35,891 bases of DNA from Streptomyces sp. (lineage in GTDB: Bacteria > Actinomycetota > Actinomycetes > Streptomycetales > Streptomycetaceae), in assembly GCA_013361925.1 (NCBI GenBank), contig JABFXD010000653.1:1-35891 (forward strand), written 5' to 3'. Positions 181 through 34,168 of this stretch are shown here, piece by piece. The notes below the pieces were generated by a model. The model did no database searches, had not been told where the DNA came from, and worked only from the letters and a program-made list of their open reading frames with translations. The translations under genes were made by a program, and so were the position numbers. The first letter of the stretch is position 1, and each line of letters starts with the position of its first letter.

Positions 181-717
181 TCAGAAGCAGGCGTCGCAGG
201 TGCAGTGCGGCCGGATGGGCTTGCCGGGGCCGTTGCCGCCTCCGCAGTGGGCCCACATGGGCCAGTGGGGTACGGGGCCTGAGCGTTGGCAGCAGGGGCC
301 GGGGTGGGGGTTGGTGTCGCGCATGTGGTCGTATGCGGCGCGGTCGTGGGGCATGACGGTGGGCTGCGGGCTGAGGGCGTTGCGCGCTTCGGCGATGGCG
401 GTGGTGGGGTCGGGCCAGCAGAAGAGGCGGTCGACGCTGAGGGCGCTGATGGCCTCCTGCCATCCCTCGGTCGTCCATGCGCGGCCGCCGCCGGACGCCA
501 TGGTGCTGACGGCCCATCCGTCTCCGTGGGCGAGGGTCTGGCGGCGGGCGATGAGGGTGATGCCGCCGTGGTCGGGCAGGGCGACCCGGTATTCGGTGGC
601 GTCGGCGGCGAGGGTGTGGGCGTGTTCGAGTTCGGCCTTGAGGCGGGTGATCTCGGCGGCGAGTTCGGCGGTGGTGGGGTCGGGTTCGTAGCGGGTCTCG
701 TAGTCCTGCTCGGTCAT
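181..717 (-). CDS. Hypothetical early protein, coiled-coil N-terminus and Cys/His-rich tail
   Basis: A 178-residue protein whose ATG overlaps the stop of the upstream initiator gene (ATGA), which fixes the start and suggests translational coupling. Residues about 15-40 form a short charged helix (AELAAEITRLKAELEHAH) likely to be a coiled coil. The C-terminal 40 residues hold several Cys and His (PCCQRS, HCTCDACF) that could bind zinc. I do not recognise the family. It lies between the initiator and the WhiB gene at the end of the early operon. Confidence 0.75.
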   Translation of the reverse strand: MTEQDYETRYEPDPTTAELAAEITRLKAELEHAHTLAADATEYRVALPDHGGITLIARRQTLAHGDGWAVSTMASGGGRAWTTEGWQEAISALSVDRLFCWPDPTTAIAEARNALSPQPTVMPHDRAAYDHMRDTNPHPGPCCQRSGPVPHWPMWAHCGGGNGPGKPIRPHCTCDACF

Positions 718-1520
718 GCGCTGTGCCTTTCGTGGTCGGTGGTGGCGTGGCCCTCACAGCGGGTGTGGACGGTGCGGTCGGGTCGCTGGGGGTCGGGCAT
801 GATCCGGCGGTGGCAGCCGGGGCAGATGCGCCACGTGGTGTGGTCGTTGGGGTCTGGCTCTTGGGGCGATTCGTGATCTTGGGGAGCGCCCACTAGCTGA
901 GGTTTGAAAGAGACCTCAACCCCGTCATGGGAAGACCCTGGGAACCCCCCTGGGTTATTCGGGGCGCTGTCCCCCGAACTGGTCGGGGCGCTGTCCCCCG
1001 AACTCCAACGGGGCGCTGTCCCCCGAACTTCTTCAGCCGTACCGCCGGTAAGTTCGGGGCGCTGTCCCCCGTTCTGGTTCGGGGCGCTGTCCCCCGAACT
1101 TTCGGCGGGCTGATCCCACCCCGGAGCCCGCTTCCGAGCCGTCGACCGGAGGTAGCCCTCGGCCGCCGGCCAGTCCGGGAAGGGGTGCACGAAGATCGCA
1201 TAGCGGGTCGCCTTGCCGCGCTTCCGCTCGCCGAGCACCTGCACGACCCCGGCCCGGATCGCGGCCTCCAGGTAGCGGCGGGCTTCCTTCTCGTCGCAGC
1301 ACGCGGCCTTGGCGATGTCCTGGATCCGGATCGGCTTGCGGTCGCTGGCGAAGGCGATCTCGCCGGACGCGGCGGCGAGGTTGCGGAGTTGGCACAGGAG
1401 CAGGGGCAGGCCAGACCGCCGCAGGTACGCGGACATCTGCCGCGTCCACTTCCACGACAGGGCGTTCCCGAAGGCGTTCGGGACGCTGCCGCTCGCGGGG
1501 GCCTGCTCGTCAGTGCTCAA
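714..1520 (-). CDS. Replication initiator-like winged-helix protein with internal iterons
   Basis: A 268-residue protein. Residues about 20-125 look like a winged-helix DNA-binding domain: a helix pair (LLLCQLRNLAAASGEIAF), a recognition helix in IQDIAKAACCDEKEARRYLEAA, and a basic wing near GERKRGKATRYAIF. Residues about 141-188 are low in complexity because five copies of a 21-bp dyad repeat run through the gene, read in different frames as SSGDSAPN, GGQRPEL or RGTAPR. The C-terminal 50 residues carry Cys/His pairs (CPGCHRR) suggestive of a zinc knuckle. A DNA-binding initiator with its own binding sites inside its gene is the lambda O arrangement, so I infer a replication initiator. A transcriptional regulator is the alternative. 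No helicase or loader gene is visible in the window. Confidence 0.65.
   Translation of the reverse strand: MSTDEQAPASGSVPNAFGNALSWKWTRQMSAYLRRSGLPLLLCQLRNLAAASGEIAFASDRKPIRIQDIAKAACCDEKEARRYLEAAIRAGVVQVLGERKRGKATRYAIFVHPFPDWPAAEGYLRSTARKRAPGWDQPAESSGDSAPNQNGGQRPELTGGTAEEVRGTAPRWSSGDSAPTSSGDSAPNNPGGFPGSSHDGVEVSFKPQLVGAPQDHESPQEPDPNDHTTWRICPGCHRRIMPDPQRPDRTVHTRCEGHATTDHERHSA
898..918. repeat. Short inverted repeat beside the iterons
   Basis: TGAGGT and ACCTCA are separated by nine A/G/T-rich bases, 40 bp from the first iteron. This stretch is less GC-rich than its surroundings and might be part of the origin region. The evidence is only the dyad and its location. Confidence 0.3.
958..1098. repeat. 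Five iterons with dyad symmetry; candidate replication origin
   Basis: Five near-identical 21-bp units start at about 958, 982, 1007, 1053 and 1078. The full unit is TTCGGGG, seven bases (CGCTGTC), CCCCGAA, so each is an inverted repeat with 7-bp arms. Units 1 and 5 are perfect; units 2 and 3 vary at the left edge and unit 4 at the right. Spacing is 24, 25, 46 and 25 bp, roughly two helical turns or a multiple, with one unit apparently missing in the middle. They sit inside the initiator-like gene, as lambda ori iterons sit inside O. An alternative is a cluster of repressor sites. Confidence 0.65.
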
Positions 1521-3758: not shown

Positions 3759-4039
3759 TCGGCACCGCCCGGCGGGGTCGGGTCGACGGTGATCGTGCGG
3801 CACGTCCAGCACTGCCGGCCGCCGAGGCGGAGGAACGCGTGCAGCGTGTCCCGCTCCTCGGCCGGGCAGTACGCGACGTCGTTGACCATGGCCTCGATGG
3901 GACGCAGCAGGTCGTCACCGGGGCGGGTGAGCGTGCGGAGCGACATGGTGGCCTCGGGGCACCCCGTCGTACGGGCGCCCTTCCGGCGGTGGCCGTGGCC
4001 GGGCTGCATGATGCGGCGCAACCGCGCGAGCGCGCTCAC
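3755..4039 (-). CDS. Small Cys-containing hypothetical protein (94 aa)
   Basis: The GTG at 4039 overlaps the upstream stop (GTGA), and its own stop overlaps the next GTG in the same way. The N-terminus is strongly basic (VSALARLRRIMQPGHGHRRK). The C-terminal half has YCPAEERDTLHAFLRLGG followed by CWTC, so three Cys that could hold zinc. The family is not recognised. Longer in-frame starts further upstream would run into the neighbouring gene and are less likely. Confidence 0.65.
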   Translation of the reverse strand: MSALARLRRIMQPGHGHRRKGARTTGCPEATMSLRTLTRPGDDLLRPIEAMVNDVAYCPAEERDTLHAFLRLGGRQCWTCRTITVDPTPPGGAE

Positions 4040-4698
4040 GACTCGTCCCGCAGGCTGATCGCGTGCTCCATGCCCGACCAGTTGTCGACCCCGGCCGCCT
4101 CCAGGCAGGACAGCCACTCGTCCCGCTTCTCCAGCTCGGCCAGCCGCTTCCGTAGCTTCTCGACGTCCTCGCCGTCACCTGCAGCGGGCGCCAGGGCCGG
4201 GGGGACAGCGGCGCCGAGGCGACCCTCCCGCCACGCCTGCGCGATCGCCGCCTTGCCCATGTCCGGAACGGTCATCCGCGTGTACGCGGCCCGCCCCTGC
4301 ATGGTCACGCCCGGCACCTCGTGGATCACGCCCGTCCCGGAGTCGACCCACTCGACGACCCCGGCCGCCGTGACCTCGTCGAGGATCTTCTTCTGGAAGC
4401 CGGGCTTCACGGTAGTGACGAACTTCCGCTCGATCTCCGTGCCGAAGTTCGCCATCACCCACGCGGTAAACGCCTCGGCGTCCGTGACTGAGGCGGCGGC
4501 CTTCGGCTGGACCAGGCTGACGGTCCCGACGTCGGGCCCCTCGCCGAGACTGACGCCGATCTTCTGCGTGCCGGTCTCCTGCTTCGCGGTCCGCAGGCCA
4601 GCCTCCAGCTCCTTCTTCGCTGCCTTCAGTTCGGCGCCAATGGCGTCGTGAAGGGTGGAGAGGACGGTGGCTCGGGCGGCGATGTCCTTGAGGCTCAT
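4036..4698 (-). CDS. Hypothetical protein paired with the Rad52-like annealing gene
   Basis: A 220-residue protein beginning MSLKDIAARATVLSTLHDAI, with ATG at 4698 overlapping the stop of the annealing-protein gene (ATGA). The first 45 residues form a charged helix (IGAELKAAKKELEAGLRTAK) and the last 60 contain a coiled coil (EDVEKLRKRLAELEKRDEWL). The centre is a mixed domain (EAFTAWVMANFGTEIERKFV). Its place directly after a single-strand annealing gene suggests a recombination accessory role, for example a nuclease inhibitor or loader, but I see no diagnostic motif. Confidence 0.7.
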   Translation of the reverse strand: MSLKDIAARATVLSTLHDAIGAELKAAKKELEAGLRTAKQETGTQKIGVSLGEGPDVGTVSLVQPKAAASVTDAEAFTAWVMANFGTEIERKFVTTVKPGFQKKILDEVTAAGVVEWVDSGTGVIHEVPGVTMQGRAAYTRMTVPDMGKAAIAQAWREGRLGAAVPPALAPAAGDGEDVEKLRKRLAELEKRDEWLSCLEAAGVDNWSGMEHAISLRDES

Positions 4699-5585
4699 GC
4701 GGCGGCGCTCCCTGCCATGAGGTCGCGGGCCTGCCGGAACTCGGCGGCGGTGCCCTGGTCGATGGGGTGGCCGAAGGCGGTGACGAACTGGTCAGGGAGC
4801 CCGGCCTCGAAGTCGACGGTGCGGGCGGCGGCCCACATCTCGGCGAGGGCGGTCTCCCGCTCCTTTGCCCCGGCGGGCGGCATGGCGCCGGGGCGCGGCT
4901 CCTGCGGCGGGTCCGGTACGGCGGCGGGCGCGGCCGGGGCCTGCTGCACGGGCGCGGCGGGCGGCGGGGTCGGGTCGGGCTCCGGGTTGTTCGGAGTCGC
5001 GTCCGGCTCGGCCTCGACGGGCGGGTCCTCGGGCTTGACCTCGTCGGTCCCGGCCACGGGTCCCCGGATCGTGAGGTGAGGGTGTGCGGCCGACCAGATG
5101 ACGACGGGGTCCGGCTTGCCTCCGTTGTAGAGGGACAGCCCGAAGGCGTCGCCGAGGTTGACCGCCGCTCGCTTCAGGGACTGCGAGTCAGCTTCCTTTA
5201 CGGCGCCGTCGTGGGCGTCGCCGAGGCTCGGCTGATTCTGCGCGTCGCCCGTGGCCACGCCGTCGAAGGTGGCGATCGGGCGCCCCGCGATGTCCTTCAC
5301 GGTGAGCCGCTGGTGCACCCGGTACACGACCGTGTACCGGTACCGCTGGTTGCCGTAGTCGTCCTTACCGGAAGGGCGCTCGATCTCACGGACGCACTCG
5401 ATCGACACCAACTCCGTGTCGTAGCCGCCGAACCCGAAGACGCGGATCAGGAAGCGGCGCACGTCCCACTGCTGGACGTGGGAGAACCCCTTGGGGTTCT
5501 TGCCCACTCGGGACTTGTGCATCTCCGAGAAGAGCACCTTGAGTTGCTGGTCGGTGAGCCTGCTGCGCAGGTCGTTGGTGCTCAA
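4695..5585 (-). CDS. Rad52-family single-strand DNA annealing protein
   Basis: A 296-residue product. The start is a TTG at 5585 that overlaps the upstream stop (TTGA) and lies nine bases after GGAAGGA; no ATG or GTG fits as well. Residues about 10-150 match the Rad52/Rad22 annealing fold: SHVQQWDVRRFLIRVFGFGG, a beta sheet with YTVVYRVHQRLTV, then the hallmark KEADSQSLKRAAVNLGDAFG and LSLYNGG. The following about 80 residues are an acidic Pro/Ala-rich linker (residues about 185-250), and a conserved-looking C-terminal helix ends the protein. It would anneal complementary single strands during phage recombination or replication. Family call by motif only. Confidence 0.8.
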   Translation of the reverse strand: MSTNDLRSRLTDQQLKVLFSEMHKSRVGKNPKGFSHVQQWDVRRFLIRVFGFGGYDTELVSIECVREIERPSGKDDYGNQRYRYTVVYRVHQRLTVKDIAGRPIATFDGVATGDAQNQPSLGDAHDGAVKEADSQSLKRAAVNLGDAFGLSLYNGGKPDPVVIWSAAHPHLTIRGPVAGTDEVKPEDPPVEAEPDATPNNPEPDPTPPPAAPVQQAPAAPAAVPDPPQEPRPGAMPPAGAKERETALAEMWAAARTVDFEAGLPDQFVTAFGHPIDQGTAAEFRQARDLMAGSAAA

Positions 5586-5869
5586 GGGGTGCGGTCCTTC
5601 CGGTTGATCGGCGTGTAGAAGCGGGAGTTGGGGCGCTCGTGGAGCTGCATGAGCCCCTGACGTGCGCGGCGGGACAGGAAGGCTCGGGCGTGGGGGCGGC
5701 CGAGCCTGCGGCCGTAGCGGGTGAGGTAGAGGTGCTGGACGCGCGCCGTGTCCCACTCGCCGCCCCATGCGCGGATGGCGGTGTCGAGGACGCGGTCCCA
5801 GTCGGCCGGCCACGTCGGGGCCGGTCCGGCGGCCGGGGCCTGAGCCCCGGCCTGCACGGTCGTCGTCAT
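5582..5869 (-). CDS. Small winged-helix-like protein (95 aa)
   Basis: ATG at 5869 overlaps the upstream stop (ATGA) and the stop overlaps the TTG start of the annealing gene (TTGA). After a Thr/Ala-rich N-terminus come helices in WDRVLDTAIRAWGGEWDTAR and VQHLYLTRYGRRLGRPHARA, then FLSRRARQGLMQLHERPNSR and a FYTPINRK strand. This is the same layout as the C-terminal half of the 157-residue protein two genes upstream (two helices, basic helix, NSRFY/NRYY strand), so both look like winged-helix DNA-binding domains and may be paralogues. Confidence 0.65.
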   Translation of the reverse strand: MTTTVQAGAQAPAAGPAPTWPADWDRVLDTAIRAWGGEWDTARVQHLYLTRYGRRLGRPHARAFLSRRARQGLMQLHERPNSRFYTPINRKDRTP

Positions 5870-13136: not shown

Positions 13137-14276
13137 TCAGGCAGGGGCGGGGCCCATGTTGGCTACGAAGACGGCACCGGAGTAGCCGGGGCCGCCGCCG
13201 AAGTACACCTTCTGCGTCGTGCCGTCCGCGCTGTTGCCCCTGTACGCGAGCACGATCTTCGCGTTGCCTGAGCCGTCGACTTCGCCCGACTGCACGACGA
13301 ACTGCCGCAGGCCCGCCTCGCCCGCGAACGCGCTCTGCGGGTACAGCGGGGCGTACCCGTCCGCCTCTGGCGTCGAGGTGCCTGAGCTGACGTACCGCGA
13401 GACGCCGCCCGCCGCAGCCTTGATCCCCAGATCAAGAACGATCCCGTACGTGCGGAGGAACGAGACCGAGAACCAGAGCCGGTCACCGACGGCCGCAGGA
13501 ATCGCCGTGCCGATCTCGACGCCGCCCGACGTGGTGACGATCGCCCACCCTGCCACCACAGGCGGCACGATGATCTGCTGGTCGATCCGGCCGTCGAGGC
13601 TGACGATCGAAGAGCCGCCCCCGCCCTCGGCAACCACGCGGTCGACGTACGCCTTCCGGGTCAGTTGGTTGTCGAACTCGGGGTCGAACCCCGGACCGAG
13701 AGGAATCCTCTGGCCGAAGTTCTTCTCGCCGTCAACGACTTGATCGCCGGTCAGCAGGACCACGCCGTCGAGGGACGGAGAGGTGCCCGGCTCGCCCTGC
13801 GGTCCTGCCGGTCCGGTCGGCCCCTCTGGTCCCTGCTGTCCGGTGGCCCCTGCGGGTCCAGTTGTGCCCGTTGCTCCGGTGGGTCCGGCGGGGCCCTGCG
13901 GTCCGGCGGGTCCGGGCACGAGGACGTACTCCCCGTCGTCGGCCGTCGCCGGGATCAGCTCGGACAGGTCCACCGTGCCGTAGCTCTTCGGCAGGGACAC
14001 GTACAGGTCGACACCTCCGCCAAGATCCAGACGGTACGTCCACCCCGTCGGCGTGAACCCGTCGGCGTCGTTCGCCACCAGGACCACAGACCACGCCCCA
14101 CCTGCGTCCGGAGTCACGACGACGGGTTCGTCATTGCGGACGACGACGCCCCACTGCGCGCCGACGACGCGCGTCGGAGTAGGCCGGATCTTCACCGGCA
14201 GTAGACGGCCCTCGCCGTCCGCGAGCGTCTGGTGTCCGGTCAGGGTGACGGTCTGCACCCCAGAAGGAAACGCCAT
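13137..14276 (-). CDS. Tail fiber with collagen-like repeats
   Basis: A 379-residue protein. Residues 1-120 are a beta-rich attachment domain ([38 protein letters not shown]). Residues about 121-166 are Gly-X-Y triplets ([16 protein letters not shown] and on), about 15 repeats that would form a collagen-like triple helix. A linker with [16 protein letters not shown] precedes a C-terminal beta-rich domain, probably trimeric and receptor-binding. It is downstream of the lysis genes, the last late gene before the attachment region. Confidence 0.8.
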
Positions 14277-18883: not shown

Positions 18884-20209
18884 TCACAGGCTGGTGTCGC
18901 GCCAGGTGACGGTCAGCAGGGACGTTTGACCGGGCGCGCCGGGTAGGGCGCTGCCTCGGTAGGCGAGTTCGTTGGAGCCGGGTTCGAGGACGGGCCACAC
19001 CGACCCGGCGCGGACCCACGAGCGGCGCGGCGCCGAGCCGCCGAGGAGGACCGCCCGGGACCGGGTGTCGATCAGCAGGTACTCGCCCGCCTGCAAGCTG
19101 GCGTCGAGCTGGAGGATGCCGCCCGTGGTGACGTCCTCGATCGCGGGGGAGGCGACCGGGCCGTCCAGCCGCAGCACCGGATACGCCGCCGAGGCGCCGT
19201 CGTTGACCGCGGTCAGCCGTCCAGAGGTGCCCGCGACGCCGTACGTACGGAACCCGGAGGCGACGTCTTGCAGGAAGTACACGTCGTCCACGAACAGCAC
19301 GTCGGTGGCGGGCGGCGTGGACGGCACGGTCGGGGCGAGCTGTCCGAACGCGGCCCCGACCGGGGCGTTGAACCCCGCATTGAGCTGAGTCCACGTGTTC
19401 GCCGCGACCGCCACCGCGTTGGTACTGGTCGACATGTAGGTGTGCGAGGCGTTGTACCAGTTGACGTTCAGCGCCACGCTGCGGGCGGTGACGCACCTGA
19501 GCCAGCCCTGCGCCCGGTAGTTCTGCCCGGCCACCACCGCGAACTGCTCGGACTCGGCACGCGGCGAGGGACTCGTGCCGTTCGGGGTCAGCTGCATCGA
19601 CCACGACCCGGAGTGGGCCTGCGTACTGACGCGCGCGATCGCCCCAGTGTTGCCCGTCCAGTTGGACAGGTCCGTCTCGAAGGTGCCGTTGGCGTTCAGG
19701 GCGGTCGGCGTGACGCCGTAGACGAGCGGGTACGAGCGGCCGGCCGCCGGACTGTACGCCGTCGTCGAGGCCGACTTCTCGTCCAGGCCGTACAGGTAGG
19801 GGTCGGCGCAGTAGAACTCCAGCACCGCCTCGCCGATCGACCAGAGGTACTCGGCGTCGTAGGGGAGCGACCGCTTGCGGACCTTCGCCCACACGAGAAC
19901 GTCTTGGTCGAGGAACTGGAGCGGCTGTGGCTGCCGCTGTGGCTGCGTCGCGTTCCGAAGGGCGAGAGTCAGCGCGCGCAGATCGTCGGGGCTCGCGCCC
20001 CTCAATCCGAGCTTGATCGGAATGGTGCGGGCCTCGGTCCAGTCCGGGCCCGTGTAGTCACCGTGCTGCCCCGGCCGCTCCACGTCTTCCGACCGGATAC
20101 CGGGCAGGTCGTCGAGGCCCTCGATCGCCGTCACGTGGTACTGCGAGCCGGGGCCGAAGGTGAGGTCGCCCCACTGGACACGGCCGAGCTTCTGCTGCGC
20201 CACCGTCAC
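18884..20209 (-). CDS. Distal tail protein (Dit-like) with carbohydrate-binding insertion
   Basis: A 441-residue product from a GTG at 20209 that overlaps the tape-measure stop (GTGA). Residues 1-130 are Dit-like: GRVQWGDLTFGPGSQYHV, GDYTGPDWTEARTIPIKLGL, LYGLDEKSA after a strand/helix belt. Residues about 165-310 form a jelly-roll module: NGTFETDLSNWTGNTGAIAR, AHSGSWSMQLTPNG, a long NYRAQGWLRCVTARSVALNV region, resembling carbohydrate-binding modules of the CBM4/9 type. The C-terminus is again Dit-like. It links tape measure to baseplate and may help recognise host wall sugars. Confidence 0.75.
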   Translation of the reverse strand: MTVAQQKLGRVQWGDLTFGPGSQYHVTAIEGLDDLPGIRSEDVERPGQHGDYTGPDWTEARTIPIKLGLRGASPDDLRALTLALRNATQPQRQPQPLQFLDQDVLVWAKVRKRSLPYDAEYLWSIGEAVLEFYCADPYLYGLDEKSASTTAYSPAAGRSYPLVYGVTPTALNANGTFETDLSNWTGNTGAIARVSTQAHSGSWSMQLTPNGTSPSPRAESEQFAVVAGQNYRAQGWLRCVTARSVALNVNWYNASHTYMSTSTNAVAVAANTWTQLNAGFNAPVGAAFGQLAPTVPSTPPATDVLFVDDVYFLQDVASGFRTYGVAGTSGRLTAVNDGASAAYPVLRLDGPVASPAIEDVTTGGILQLDASLQAGEYLLIDTRSRAVLLGGSAPRRSWVRAGSVWPVLEPGSNELAYRGSALPGAPGQTSLLTVTWRDTSL

Positions 20210-23200
20210 CGCCTCCCCACGAGGCCCTGCCACGACAGGGCGCGCAGCATCCCATCCGGCGTCGCCTCGGTCCCGTAGAGATAGATGTTGTTGGTCTGGT
20301 CGCCCCGGCCGCCGCCTCCCGCGTACACCGCGGCAAGCTGGCCGGCCGTCGGCGTCACCGACAGGGAGCCGCCCGCCCTGGAGGCGACGTCGAGGGCGGC
20401 GCCGGCCATCGACCGGGCGGCGTCACGTACGCGCTTCGTCGAGGCGAGCAGTCCCTCGCGCAGGCCCTCGCCGTCCATCTCGCCGAGCCACCGGAACTCG
20501 CGCGACGGGGACTTGGTCTTGTGGGCCTTCTTCACCGTCTTGAGCATGTCCTCGGCGATCTTCCGCATCTGCTTTTCGATCGCCTTCTCCTGCGACTTCA
20601 GCCCCGCCACGAGCCCCTCGGCCGCGCGGATGCCCGCCCCGTACAGGGCGTCGCCCACGGTGTTGCCGGTCGCCGTCGCGCTCTTCGCGAGCTGCCCCTG
20701 CAAGTCGTTGATCTTCTTCAGCTCGGCCGGGGTCGCCTTCGCCAGTGCCGCGGCCGTTGCCCCGCCCGCATCGACACCTGCGTCGGCGATCTGCTGGAGC
20801 AGGTCGCTGCGGAGTCCGGCCTTCTTCAGCTTGGCGATGTTGTCCTGGAACGCCTTCGTCGCCTTGAGGGACTGCTGGAGTCCCACGGTGATTGCCGAGA
20901 CCGAGTTGACGTCGGAGTGCCCGGTCGTGATGTTCGCGTCCTGGAGGATGCCCTCAGTGATGCCCGCCGCCGCCTTCGAGCGGGCCTTCAACAGGTCATC
21001 GAGCTTCTTCTGCGCAGCCGCGAGCCGCTTCACCACGGCGTCCCGCCGCGAGACGAGCTTCTCCAGGGTGGCGGTCGCCTTCGCGAGGCTCTTGCCGACA
21101 CCCGAACTCACGTTGTCGGGCAGCGCCTTGGTGATCGACTGGAGCTTCGACTTCAGCTTGGCCGTGCTCTGGTCGATGCCCGCGATGAAACCGGCGATGA
21201 GCAGCTGGCCGGCCGGGGTGAGGATCTTCGCGTCCTTCGCGGGCGGACCCTTCCAGCTGGTCAGGTTGTCGGTGAGCCCGCCGAGCTTGTCCTTCACCGC
21301 GCCGAACATGCTGGAGATGCCGTCGATGAACCCCTGGATCAGCGACTTGCCCGCGTTCCACAGCACACTGGCCATCGACCCGACGGCCTTCTGTGCCTTA
21401 GCGGGCAGGCCCGTCAGGAACACGACCGACTCGGCGACCTTCTTCCGGATGGCGTCGACCAGCCCCTGCCCGGCCTTCACCGCAGGCGTCACCATCTGGA
21501 CAGCCAGGGAGACCAGCGCGTTGAAGGCTCTGCCCGGCAGCCCCGCCAGCCAGCTCACCGCGGCGCTCACGCCGTCGCCGACCGCCCGGCCGATCGCTAC
21601 CGACTTCTCTGCGATCCACGACGCGGCAGAGCCGACGGCGTCCTTCGCGGTCTGCCACGCCCCGGAGAAGTCGCCGGTCAGGAGCTGGCCTACGACGGTG
21701 AGGACGGGCACCAGTACGTTGGTGATCGCCCCGGCCAAGATCGTCGTGAGTGTGGTCGCCAGGCTGACGGCGATCTCGATCAGCGGCTGGATCGCGGGGA
21801 GCAGGTTCTCCAGGATCAGCACGGCGAGTTTACCGAAGGCGGTCAGGATCGGGCTGGCCGCGACCAGGAGTTCAGCGAAGGCGGTACCCAACTCCACAAG
21901 ACTCGGACCGAGTTGGACGAGGAGATCTGCGATGACGGGGAGCAGGGTCTCTGCCAGCTGGACGAGCAGGGCCGCGAACGGCGCCACGAACTCTGGCATC
22001 TGCGCGAGGATCGGGCTCAGCGCGTCGAGGAGGATGTCAGCGACTTCCTGAATGATCGGCGCGAGGTCCGCGAAGATCGTGCTGAGTGCCTCGAAGAGCG
22101 GCATCGCCACCGGCAGCAGCGCGGTGATCAGCTGGCCGAGCACGGTCAGAAGCGGCGACGCCGCGACGATGACCTCACCCACGGCCTCGGCGACAACCTG
22201 AAGGACCGGGCCCAGGGCCTCAATGATCGGGGTCAGCGCCTCGCCCAGGGCGGTGACCAGGGTCTGCACCGGCGGTCCGAGGGCCTCGACAACCGGGCCT
22301 ACCGCCAAGAGCGCCTCGGCGAGCAGCGGAGCCACGGTGGACGCGATCGTCCCCATGGTCTCGAACAAGGTCGTGAGCCCGCCCTGTACCTCGCTGGTGT
22401 TCACGACGTCGGCGATGGCGCCCGTGATCTCCTGCAAGGTGTTGATCAGCCCGCCGCCACCCTCGGGCACGGCGTTGAAGATCGCGCCGATGATCTTGCC
22501 GACGTTCGAGCCGACCGTGAGCAGCTGGCCGAGCAGGTCCATCGCCGTCTCGATGGCGTCCTGCATCGCGCCGGACTCGAACGCGTCGCTCAGCTTCTCG
22601 CCGATGCCCGCCGCAGCATGGGCAGCACCATCGGTGAGCGACTCGAACGACGGCCCGGCCGCCGCGCCGATCTGCCCCAGCGCCGTGACCACGATGCCCG
22701 GGACCCCGGACAGGTTCCGCAGGCCAGTGCTCGCCGAACCGAGCGCCTTCCCCAGCGTCCCGTTGTCCGCCAGCTCCTTCGCCGCGCCCATCGCGCCGGC
22801 CGCCATGTCGCCGAGCGCGGTCGCCGAGTTGAGCAAGTTCGTGCGCAGCACCGGGAGCACGCTCTTCGCGGTGCGCTCAAGGTTGTCGCCGAGGCCGCGG
22901 AACACCTCCTCCTGCACGGCCTGCTGTACCTCGCGCAGGGCCGGGCTCAGGTCCCGCACCGTGGTGGCGAACTTGGCCGCGCTCGGCGACAGCTTGTCGA
23001 GAGCCTTCTCGAACTCCTCGGCCTTCGACGGATCGAGCGCGGCGCTGAGGGCGTCGTCCATGCCGACGGCCGCGAGCTTGACCGTGCCGGACGCCAGCTG
23101 CACCGCAGCCATACCCGTCACCGCGATGCCCGCCGCCGGGGCCACGTTCGCGAGGGTCTGCACGACGCTCGCGAGGAGCGGCACCGCCGAGCCCAGCATC

Positions 23201-32824: not shown

Positions 32825-34168
32825 TCAGGCGACCGCGGCGGAGTTGCCCGCGGACGCGAGCATGAGAGCGGTGAGGGCCCACACCATGGCGTCCAGCCGG
32901 TCAGGGCTGGTCTTGCCGGGGACCCAGGTGGTGAGCTGCGTCTCCAGCTCGGGCAGGCTGTTCACGATGTGCGCCGCGTTCTGCGAGAACGCGGCGGCCA
33001 CGGGCTCAGCTCGGGTGGCCTTGCCCCGGGTGGCGGTGACGGTGTCGTAGTTCACCGTGCGGTCGATCTGCCGCAGCGTCGTACCGATCCAGTCGCCACC
33101 GTTGTTGGTCTCGGCGATCACGACGTCCGCCTTCCACGCGTGATACGCCTCGGCCGCCTTCCGCATGCACTCCTCGGGTGACATGCGCCCGGAGAGGTCA
33201 TCGAGCACGTAGCCGTGCTGTCGAGCGAACCCGTTGCGGTCGGGGATGTACGCCTGCCCGAGGCCGGCCACTACGAGGCCCATCTCGTCGGACTCGTCGC
33301 CGTCGGTGGCGGCCGGGTCGATGGCGATGACGATGCGGGTCATGGGCGGGGCCGCGCCGACTCGCGTGCGGTCGAGGGTGAGACGCTTCCACAGCGTTCC
33401 CTCGATGTCCTTTAGCAGCTTGCCGTCCAGCTCTTGGGCCTCGGTCGCGGTACCGGCATGGCGGCGAATCAGCTTGTCTCGCTGCTCCTGCGGCAGGTGG
33501 ATTGCGTCGCGGGTTCGACCGCGGGTGACGATGACGTCGGCGCGCTCGGACAGTTCGATGATCTCGGTCCGTGGCTTGGGTGTGGTGCTGCCGATGTAGT
33601 GGGGGTTGGGGCCGATGCGCAGGCCCATCTCGCTGTGCGTGATCGCTTCCTTGAGGCGGCGTTGCGCGGCGACCTCTTCCATCCACACGAGGCACCGGTT
33701 ACCACCGGCACGGAGACGCTCGACGTCGTCCGGGGTGTGCGCCCCGAACAGCTTCGCCTCGGCCCCTGAGGGCCACCGGGCGAAGGTGCCGCCTGCGGTC
33801 GTCCTGAGCACAACGCGCGGGTCGTGCGCCTTGAGCCCGGACGGTCCGTTGACGCATGCCTCGACGGCGTCTCCCTGCGTCGGGGCGATGATGGCCATGC
33901 GGTGCCCGCCCTTCAACCGCGGGTCGCACGGGGGGCCGTTGACGTGGGCGACCATGTAGCGGGCGCATCCGTCCGTCTTGCCGGTGCCGCGCCCGCCGAG
34001 CTGCAACCACCACCCGAGGGTCTCGATCGCGTCGGGCGGGACCTGCCACGGGTACGGCTTCCACCGCCCCCACCGCTTGTGCCACAGCCGGTCCGCCAAC
34101 TCGGCTTCGAGCAGCTCAAGCTCGGCCGGGGACATCCCGGCCATGGCTGCATCGAGGTCGACGGACAC
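32825..34168 (-). CDS. Terminase large subunit
   Basis: A 447-residue protein from GTG 34168. ATPase: Walker A GGRGTGKT (58-65) and Walker B LVWMEE (160-165), followed by the coupling motif GSTTPKP. Nuclease: Asp284 in AIDPAATDGDES, Glu353 in VIAETNNGGD and Asp426 in SPDRLDAMVWAL. It powers DNA packaging and cuts the concatemer. The genome end type (cos or pac) cannot be told from the motifs alone. Confidence 0.95.
   Translation of the reverse strand: MSVDLDAAMAGMSPAELELLEAELADRLWHKRWGRWKPYPWQVPPDAIETLGWWLQLGGRGTGKTDGCARYMVAHVNGPPCDPRLKGGHRMAIIAPTQGDAVEACVNGPSGLKAHDPRVVLRTTAGGTFARWPSGAEAKLFGAHTPDDVERLRAGGNRCLVWMEEVAAQRRLKEAITHSEMGLRIGPNPHYIGSTTPKPRTEIIELSERADVIVTRGRTRDAIHLPQEQRDKLIRRHAGTATEAQELDGKLLKDIEGTLWKRLTLDRTRVGAAPPMTRIVIAIDPAATDGDESDEMGLVVAGLGQAYIPDRNGFARQHGYVLDDLSGRMSPEECMRKAAEAYHAWKADVVIAETNNGGDWIGTTLRQIDRTVNYDTVTATRGKATRAEPVAAAFSQNAAHIVNSLPELETQLTTWVPGKTSPDRLDAMVWALTALMLASAGNSAAVA

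Follow-up and report, generated by a model that had tools for sequence, protein, structure and literature searches.

The window, by which we mean the whole 35,891-nucleotide stretch of Streptomyces DNA analyzed here (contig C436 of a 6.2 Mb assembly), contains genes for portal, capsid, tape measure, tail and integrase proteins, recognized in a PHROG scan, as well as a Rad52-type gene, and is therefore assigned to a temperate siphophage or prophage. A gene in the early region of this phage (positions 714 to 1520, minus strand), delimited by its open reading frame and its relatives, encodes a protein of 268 amino acids from a TTG start. Its N-terminal part (codons 10 to 135; 1116 to 1493, minus strand) is predicted to be a winged-helix DNA-binding domain, on the basis of AlphaFold2 models and their fold neighbors and in line with an earlier note on this DNA; modeled alone, the domain reached a mean pLDDT of 87.2 and a pTM of 0.81. 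Codon 76 (Asp; 1293 to 1295, minus strand), assigned as the specificity residue from covariation and the AlphaFold2 model, occupies the N-cap position of the predicted recognition helix (residues 77 to 90). The domain is followed by a linker (codons 136 to 220; 861 to 1115, minus strand) that is predicted to be disordered (pLDDT below 50), whose DNA holds a set of iterons, and which is marked by its codon-position pattern and by a drop in GC3 from.93-.97 to.63. A Cys/His zinc-ribbon-like domain at the C-terminus (codons about 225 to 262; 735 to 848, minus strand) was assigned from the CPGC...H..C pattern of the translation and a pLDDT of about 70 to 90; a Pfam match to Zn_ribbon_SprT was found in one of 41 relatives.

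Several other genes in the window are of separate interest. The open reading frame at 4036 to 4698 encodes a longer protein with a fused C-terminus that matches the RecBCD inhibitor gp5.9 of phage T7 (PF25708, E 2.8e-14), and directly adjoins the Rad52-type open reading frame (4695 to 5813). The gene at 13137 to 14276 encodes a tail-fibre protein, with matches to 'collagen like minor tail' families as well, and that at 18884 to 20233 encodes a minor tail or Dit-like protein, one stretch of which matches the phosphodiesterase family phrog_24476.

The five iterons were located by sequence on the minus strand and are, in gene order, at 1078 to 1098, 1053 to 1073, 1007 to 1027, 982 to 1002 and 958 to 978. 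They have 71% GC, and CGGGGCGCTGTCCCCCG is common to all five, with an identical core of 17 bp. The earlier note had described five 21-bp dyads with 7-bp arms in this gene; the five units stand and exceed chance expectation, but perfect 7-bp arms are present only in the outermost iterons (those starting at 958 and 1078), while the other three carry one, two and two mismatches. With up to two mismatches allowed, the window has six dyad matches, compared with a shuffle mean of 0.22 and none of 100 shuffles reaching six; the sixth match (33728 to 33748) is isolated. A single copy of the core, also standing alone, is present elsewhere in the same genome (contig C811). As had been noted before, the dyads are read in different frames: three copies lie in one reading frame and one in each of the two others.

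Directly past the array in the direction of the gene lies a post-iteron element (880 to 957, minus strand) of lower GC content, with three CCCA motifs spaced 11-12 bp apart, which is conserved regardless of iteron type and is a putative unwinding or loading region; it includes an imperfect dyad, TGAGGT...ACCTCA, recognized from the sequence at 896 to 920. Positions 894 to 957 have 56% GC, compared with 70% for the window; 1.0% of window 64-mers are this low. The earlier note saw no obvious AT-rich region beside the iterons; a relative dip is in fact present at 894 to 957, though with 56-57% GC it would not count as AT-rich on an absolute scale. The dip is matched or exceeded elsewhere in the window: in a list of the fifteen non-overlapping 60-mers of lowest GC, 869 to 928 shares seventh place. 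Averaged over 42 genes of the family, the GC minimum of the gene, 57%, falls 20-59 bp past the last iteron (in a 40-bp step), with 64-75% upstream. All three CCCA motifs are present in 31 of the 42 tails, ACCTCA is exact in 37 and TGAGGT in 15; both dyad arms are found within two mismatches in 39 of 42, by a permissive test that has no shuffle control. GC skew over the first three kilobases is +0.28, +0.01 and +0.22 and, with the window ending beside the gene, speaks neither for nor against an origin.

Relatives of the gene were collected from the phages OnionKnight and Chymera, 12 genome loci and 34 viral contigs, and after six exact duplicates were dropped the set comprised 43 genes including that of the window. 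An array of 4-6 copies, in the same region of the gene and at near-fixed spacing, is present in 42 of these; the 43rd (L056) is truncated by the end of its contig and matches a gene (L027) that has an array. Even the Chymera protein, which is 31% identical to the window protein, is encoded by a gene with six copies. Every relative with a named source comes from a Streptomyces genome or phage. Matches to the gene were found in 16 of 394 genomes sampled at the level of the family, 21 of 392 in the genus and 14 of 391 in the order, in overlapping samples that include the window's own genome, and a class-wide sample of 394 genomes gave four matches, all within the window's genus. No match was found among 72,556 plasmid records. 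A further 38 loci, 12 of them duplicates, showed arrays in 21 of the remaining 26; the five exceptions are two short, distant genes (L075, L077), two matches of marginal E-value (L078, L097) and a partial gene at a contig start (L100). The short relative represented by L121 and L075 consists of the winged-helix part alone, with about 118 codons between the start of the match and a stop and no iterons, and is possibly a decayed copy or a regulator.

The geometry of the arrays is highly constrained. In 62 arrays with 318 copies, 4-7 sites per array lie deep inside the coding sequence, and the spacings are 24-25 bp (153 cases), 35-37 bp (48) or 46-48 bp (49), with spacings of 23, 28, 38 or 39 bp in six cases in total; the last two are 25 and 24 bp in 59 of the 62. 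The clusters at 24-25, 36 and 46 bp differ by about one helical turn, and steps of about 10.5-11 bp thus hold the iterons in a constant helical relation. The exact tandem iteron pair was matched in 16 viral contigs, of which 15 carry it inside this gene, one pair per contig, and the 16th also carries the initiator gene; none of the 16 has the array without the gene, as a satellite or other element might.

Conservation was compared by codon position in 25 genes of one spacing type. In the DNA-binding domain the three positions differ in identity (.75/.82/.64), whereas each of the five iterons has a flat profile; iteron 2, for example, has.78/.79/.78 and iteron 5 has.87/.86/.90. Synonymous-codon identity is.67 in the winged-helix part versus.80-.92 in the iterons. 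A flat pattern (.62/.63/.64), with a synonymous identity of.82, is seen in the poorly conserved C-terminal part as well, and these two measures are therefore not specific to the array when taken alone. An expanded low-complexity coding tract, which the repeated SGDSAP-like peptides might suggest, is scarcely credible as the whole explanation: it is contradicted by the use of three frames, the fixed spacing and the equal conservation of codon positions within the iterons, and one base change common to the copies has a different effect on the peptide in each frame. The proposal that the iterons are kept at the DNA level is thus borne out by arrays in 42 of 43 genes, flat codon-position identity and near-fixed spacing; close relatives, where a loss might have been seen, do have the arrays, and the spacing and frames make the repeats more than a coding tract. 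Judged from these sequence comparisons, the array is kept for DNA reasons, with the protein co-evolving with it.

The clearest sign of this co-evolution is at residue 76 of the protein and base 7 of the iteron half-site, where the copies within one phage change largely together. Asp76 occurs with G at base 7, Arg76 with C, and Ser76 or Asn76 loosely with T. Counted per copy, Asp76 arrays have G in the left half in 170 of 170 and in the right half G in 156, T in 13 and A in one; Arg76 arrays have C in both halves in 88 of 88; and the 60 Ser/Asn76 copies have T in 55 and C in five right halves, with T in 29, C in 24 and G in seven left halves. Across 42 genes residue 76 carries the highest information on bases 7-8. 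For bases 14-15 the linker-side columns 136 and 125 are slightly above residue 76 in raw information, while residue 76 has the highest share of its own information. The rule (Asp-G, Arg-C, Ser/Asn-T) was written down before the further loci were examined, L063 to L078 having already been retrieved and not yet viewed. It was followed by nine of nine held-out Asp genes, nine of nine Arg genes and one of three Ser genes; of the two Ser exceptions, L095 differs and L076 is too distant for its register to be clear. One more gene, located by pattern (L111), has Arg76 with C, in agreement with the rule.

As a control for kinship we used a 62-row tree built with column 76 left out. On this tree the distinction between Asp and other residues at position 76 requires at least eight changes. 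Seven independent Asp/not-Asp pairs are concordant at the left base in all cases (p 0.016), with a mean of 6.9 at the right base; Arg alone gives three independent pairs, too few for a test, and six Ser/Asn pairs are concordant in three cases at the left and a mean of 4.9 at the right, with none opposite, which is not significant. Each of the ten inferred changes of base 7 shares its branch with a change of residue 76 (hypergeometric p 8e-14, a nominal value with no correction for the number of columns tried), the next best column having p 0.018, and 20 other roots gave an overlap of ten in 16 and nine in four. At the mirror position, base 15, eight of 11 changes fall on such branches (p 2.6e-8). 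The sole residue-76 change with no base change is from Asn to Ser. Other iteron positions have weaker partners, the best being residue 51 for position 13 (nominal p 1.3e-4). Transfer of a recombined segment carrying both residue 76 and the iterons is, from these comparisons, an unlikely cause, because no other residue approaches the score of residue 76. In the AlphaFold2 model residue 76 caps the helix 77-90 that serves as recognition helix of the predicted winged helix; the usual contacts would be satisfied by Asp opposite the C of a G-C pair and by Arg opposite a G. Given this joint change and the performance of the rule on held-out genes, the initiator very probably binds its own iterons.

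The same data bear on the idea that the repeats act in RNA, as mRNA hairpins for attenuation or translation control, and not as protein-binding DNA. Every dyad could form a hairpin, giving five per message. The symmetry of the arms is often broken, however, both in Asp76 arrays with T in the right half and in mixed Ser/Asn arrays; the changes track a residue of the DNA-binding helix, which hairpins would not need, and helical-turn spacing has no obvious RNA reason. We regard this reading as highly improbable. Nor do we give much credence to a parS-like partition site or a packaging site read by the protein, very unlikely in our estimate even though GC-rich palindromes clustered in a prophage-like element might call such sites to mind: 26 distinct window open reading frames scanned against PHROGs, a subset of the total, have no match to ParA or ParB families, and an integrase is present, so that plasmid partition is not needed.

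By contrast with the post-iteron element, the iteron core depends strongly on the residue-76 class, with an identity of.87 within versus.61 between classes; the tails have.70 and.68, respectively. That this element stays constant while the adjoining array switches suggests a host-facing or unwinding role. Taken together, these observations make it highly likely, in our assessment, that the gene encodes a phage replication initiator and harbors the origin within its own coding sequence, working along the following lines. The N-terminal winged helix, probably dimeric, would bind the five dyads in the codons of the flexible linker, with base 7 of each half-site (TTCGGG-N7) read by residue 76 at the recognition-helix tip. 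The bound array could then form an O-some-like complex, proposed on account of the fixed helical spacing of the iterons; opening would follow at the lower-GC element directly past the array, and the C-terminal zinc-ribbon-like domain may recruit the host replisome. We infer dimers, physical contact, unwinding, recruitment and replication itself. Recruitment of the host replisome or helicase is suggested because no phage helicase loader was recognized nearby: the 26 scanned open reading frames gave no recognized helicase, primase, polymerase or loader, and the genes downstream at eight loci (three with no match, four in families of unknown function and one methyltransferase) include no loader family of the P or DnaC type. 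Since these downstream genes mostly belong to no family of known function, an unrecognized loader is possible.

The principal competing view sees the protein as a transcriptional regulator that has its operators, the dyads, inside its own gene, for autoregulation or control of a neighboring operon, with no origin. Such a protein could well have the predicted winged helix. Its weak PHROG matches (E up to 0.01) point in more than one direction, to 'replication initiation O-like' (phrog_391) in ten of 41 members, 'replication initiation protein' in six and 'transcriptional regulator' in nine, and its fold neighbors in the PDB are mostly MarR, CRP, Fur and similar regulators. These neighbors are generic winged helices with tied Z-scores and decide nothing; the 'Initiator' and 'Rep-DNA complex' entries 4pql, 4pt7 and 5kbj, which we take to be pSK1-type RepA, are among them at Z 6.7-7.6, tied with unrelated regulators. 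A sequence search of the PDB with the window protein gave no match, and one with the family profile gave two marginal matches (E 0.07 and 0.19). Operators would hardly be expected as 4-7 sites deep within a coding sequence, with the exact tandem pair occurring once per viral contig and in-gene at all 15 loci that show the gene, or to be followed by a conserved lower-GC element. SV1-type proteins of like layout are annotated as replication initiators, and the 62 annotated genes of OnionKnight name no other initiator and no helicase, primase, polymerase or loader. We consider the regulator unlikely and the replication initiator the better account of the locus.

If the initiator works as proposed, the covariation may be read as a one-residue, one-base code by which origins are re-keyed, with Asp, Arg or Ser/Asn at position 76 specifying base 7, Ser/Asn being tolerant with mixed left halves, and the opening element remaining constant through about ten switches. 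The result would be natural orthogonal origins, driven by competition between co-resident prophages or by defences aimed at origins; we give this fuller interpretation somewhat better than an even chance. Two genomes carry two array-bearing genes of differing type: G449 has Asp/G (L086, by its identity to L022) and Arg/C (L098), and G507 has Ser/T (L079, by its identity to L019) and Asp/G (L099). Differing types in both would fit the avoidance of incompatibility, but two cases are no proof. In a third genome (G541) a full gene is accompanied by a partial one, and the two are of the same type.

We found no report of these iterons, or of such an origin in a Streptomyces phage, in the open-licence PubMed Central literature; an excerpt of one article there cites work on the replication of the plasmid-phage pZL12 (PMC7157519). 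A predicted origin can now be given for the isolated phages OnionKnight, Chymera and SV1. The family makes testable how an initiator and all of its sites switch specificity together without loss of replication, and an orthogonal, GC-rich set of natural origins would serve Streptomyces vectors.

A second family, that of phage SV1, has the same layout as the window family but a different dyad, GGGCCGGAATCCGGCCC. SV1 gp38 is annotated as a replication initiation protein, and its gene (L123, 4670-5566) lies four genes beyond one for DNA repair and contains six GC-rich dyads and a GC dip. Five phages of this type were examined (L123-L127) from ten matching records, in which some phages are represented twice. 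The spacing 36/30/24/46/23 is common to SV1, Picard, Tubberson and ToastyFinz. This family too has a tail of lower GC, with 47-57% in the 40 bp past the array. Eklok has a spacing of 37/30/35/46/23, a different dyad and, in the likely recognition helix, a different stretch following LN; ToastyFinz also differs in this stretch, with a similar dyad. The loose dyad pattern (up to two mismatches) also matches ten times outside gp38 in 10.5 kb of SV1, and only exact copies and shared spacing are therefore counted. The SV1/Picard-type initiator (phrog_6643) has an N-terminal match to the O-like PHROG 391 and a conserved tail past the dyads. Profile similarity between the two families is marginal (probability 13%), and phrog_6643 is not among the families matched by 41 window-family members at E up to 0.01.

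The comparison with phage lambda made in the earlier note holds for the layout, in which a DNA-binding domain, linker iterons, a lower-GC segment and a C-terminal domain follow one another as in lambda O and its origin. The design is lambda-O-like, with several iterons in the initiator's own gene; membership by sequence is not established, and profile comparison with hhalign detected no similarity to lambda O, for which the PDB copy searched has no solved structure. An O protein of phage Min27 is among the fold neighbors, at rank 15. Lambda likewise has its iterons in the gene, four imperfect dyads with starts 20, 24 and 23 bp apart, and in both genes the coding sequence continues beyond them; the O genes of Stx phages have six iterons, according to the excerpted text of PMC7466680. 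The low-GC segment directly past the lambda iterons has 27% GC, against 50% in a 2.1-kb region, and the dip in the window is milder. The window gene also differs from lambda O in the 71% GC of its iterons, its zinc-ribbon-like C-terminal domain, spacings in helical steps and the lack of a recognized adjoining loader gene.

The RepA_N initiators of plasmids such as pSK41 and pSK1 offer a second parallel. As described in passages of PMC5703833, their winged-helix N-terminal domain binds Rep boxes located centrally in rep, the origin encodes the linker, and the C-terminal domain is thought to be host-specific; the window gene resembles them in its predicted N-terminal winged helix, its in-gene iterons and a linker encoded by the putative origin. 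The hybrid pPR9 uses a helix-turn-helix of PF13730, and this family is also the best, sub-threshold, Pfam match of the window protein. The RepA_N boxes differ in including an A+T-rich tract, and the plasmids are those of Firmicutes; no Pfam match to the RepA_N domain was found in 41 window-family members at E up to 0.01. Exchange of specificity has a parallel in PLE, the satellite of phage ICP1, where, in the text excerpted from PMC8263062, the DNA-binding domain of RepA and the origin co-vary and an origin-directed nuclease is suggested as the driver of origin exchange. Whereas PLE, as described there, swaps whole domains, in the Streptomyces phage family a single residue tracks a single base, through ten inferred switches.
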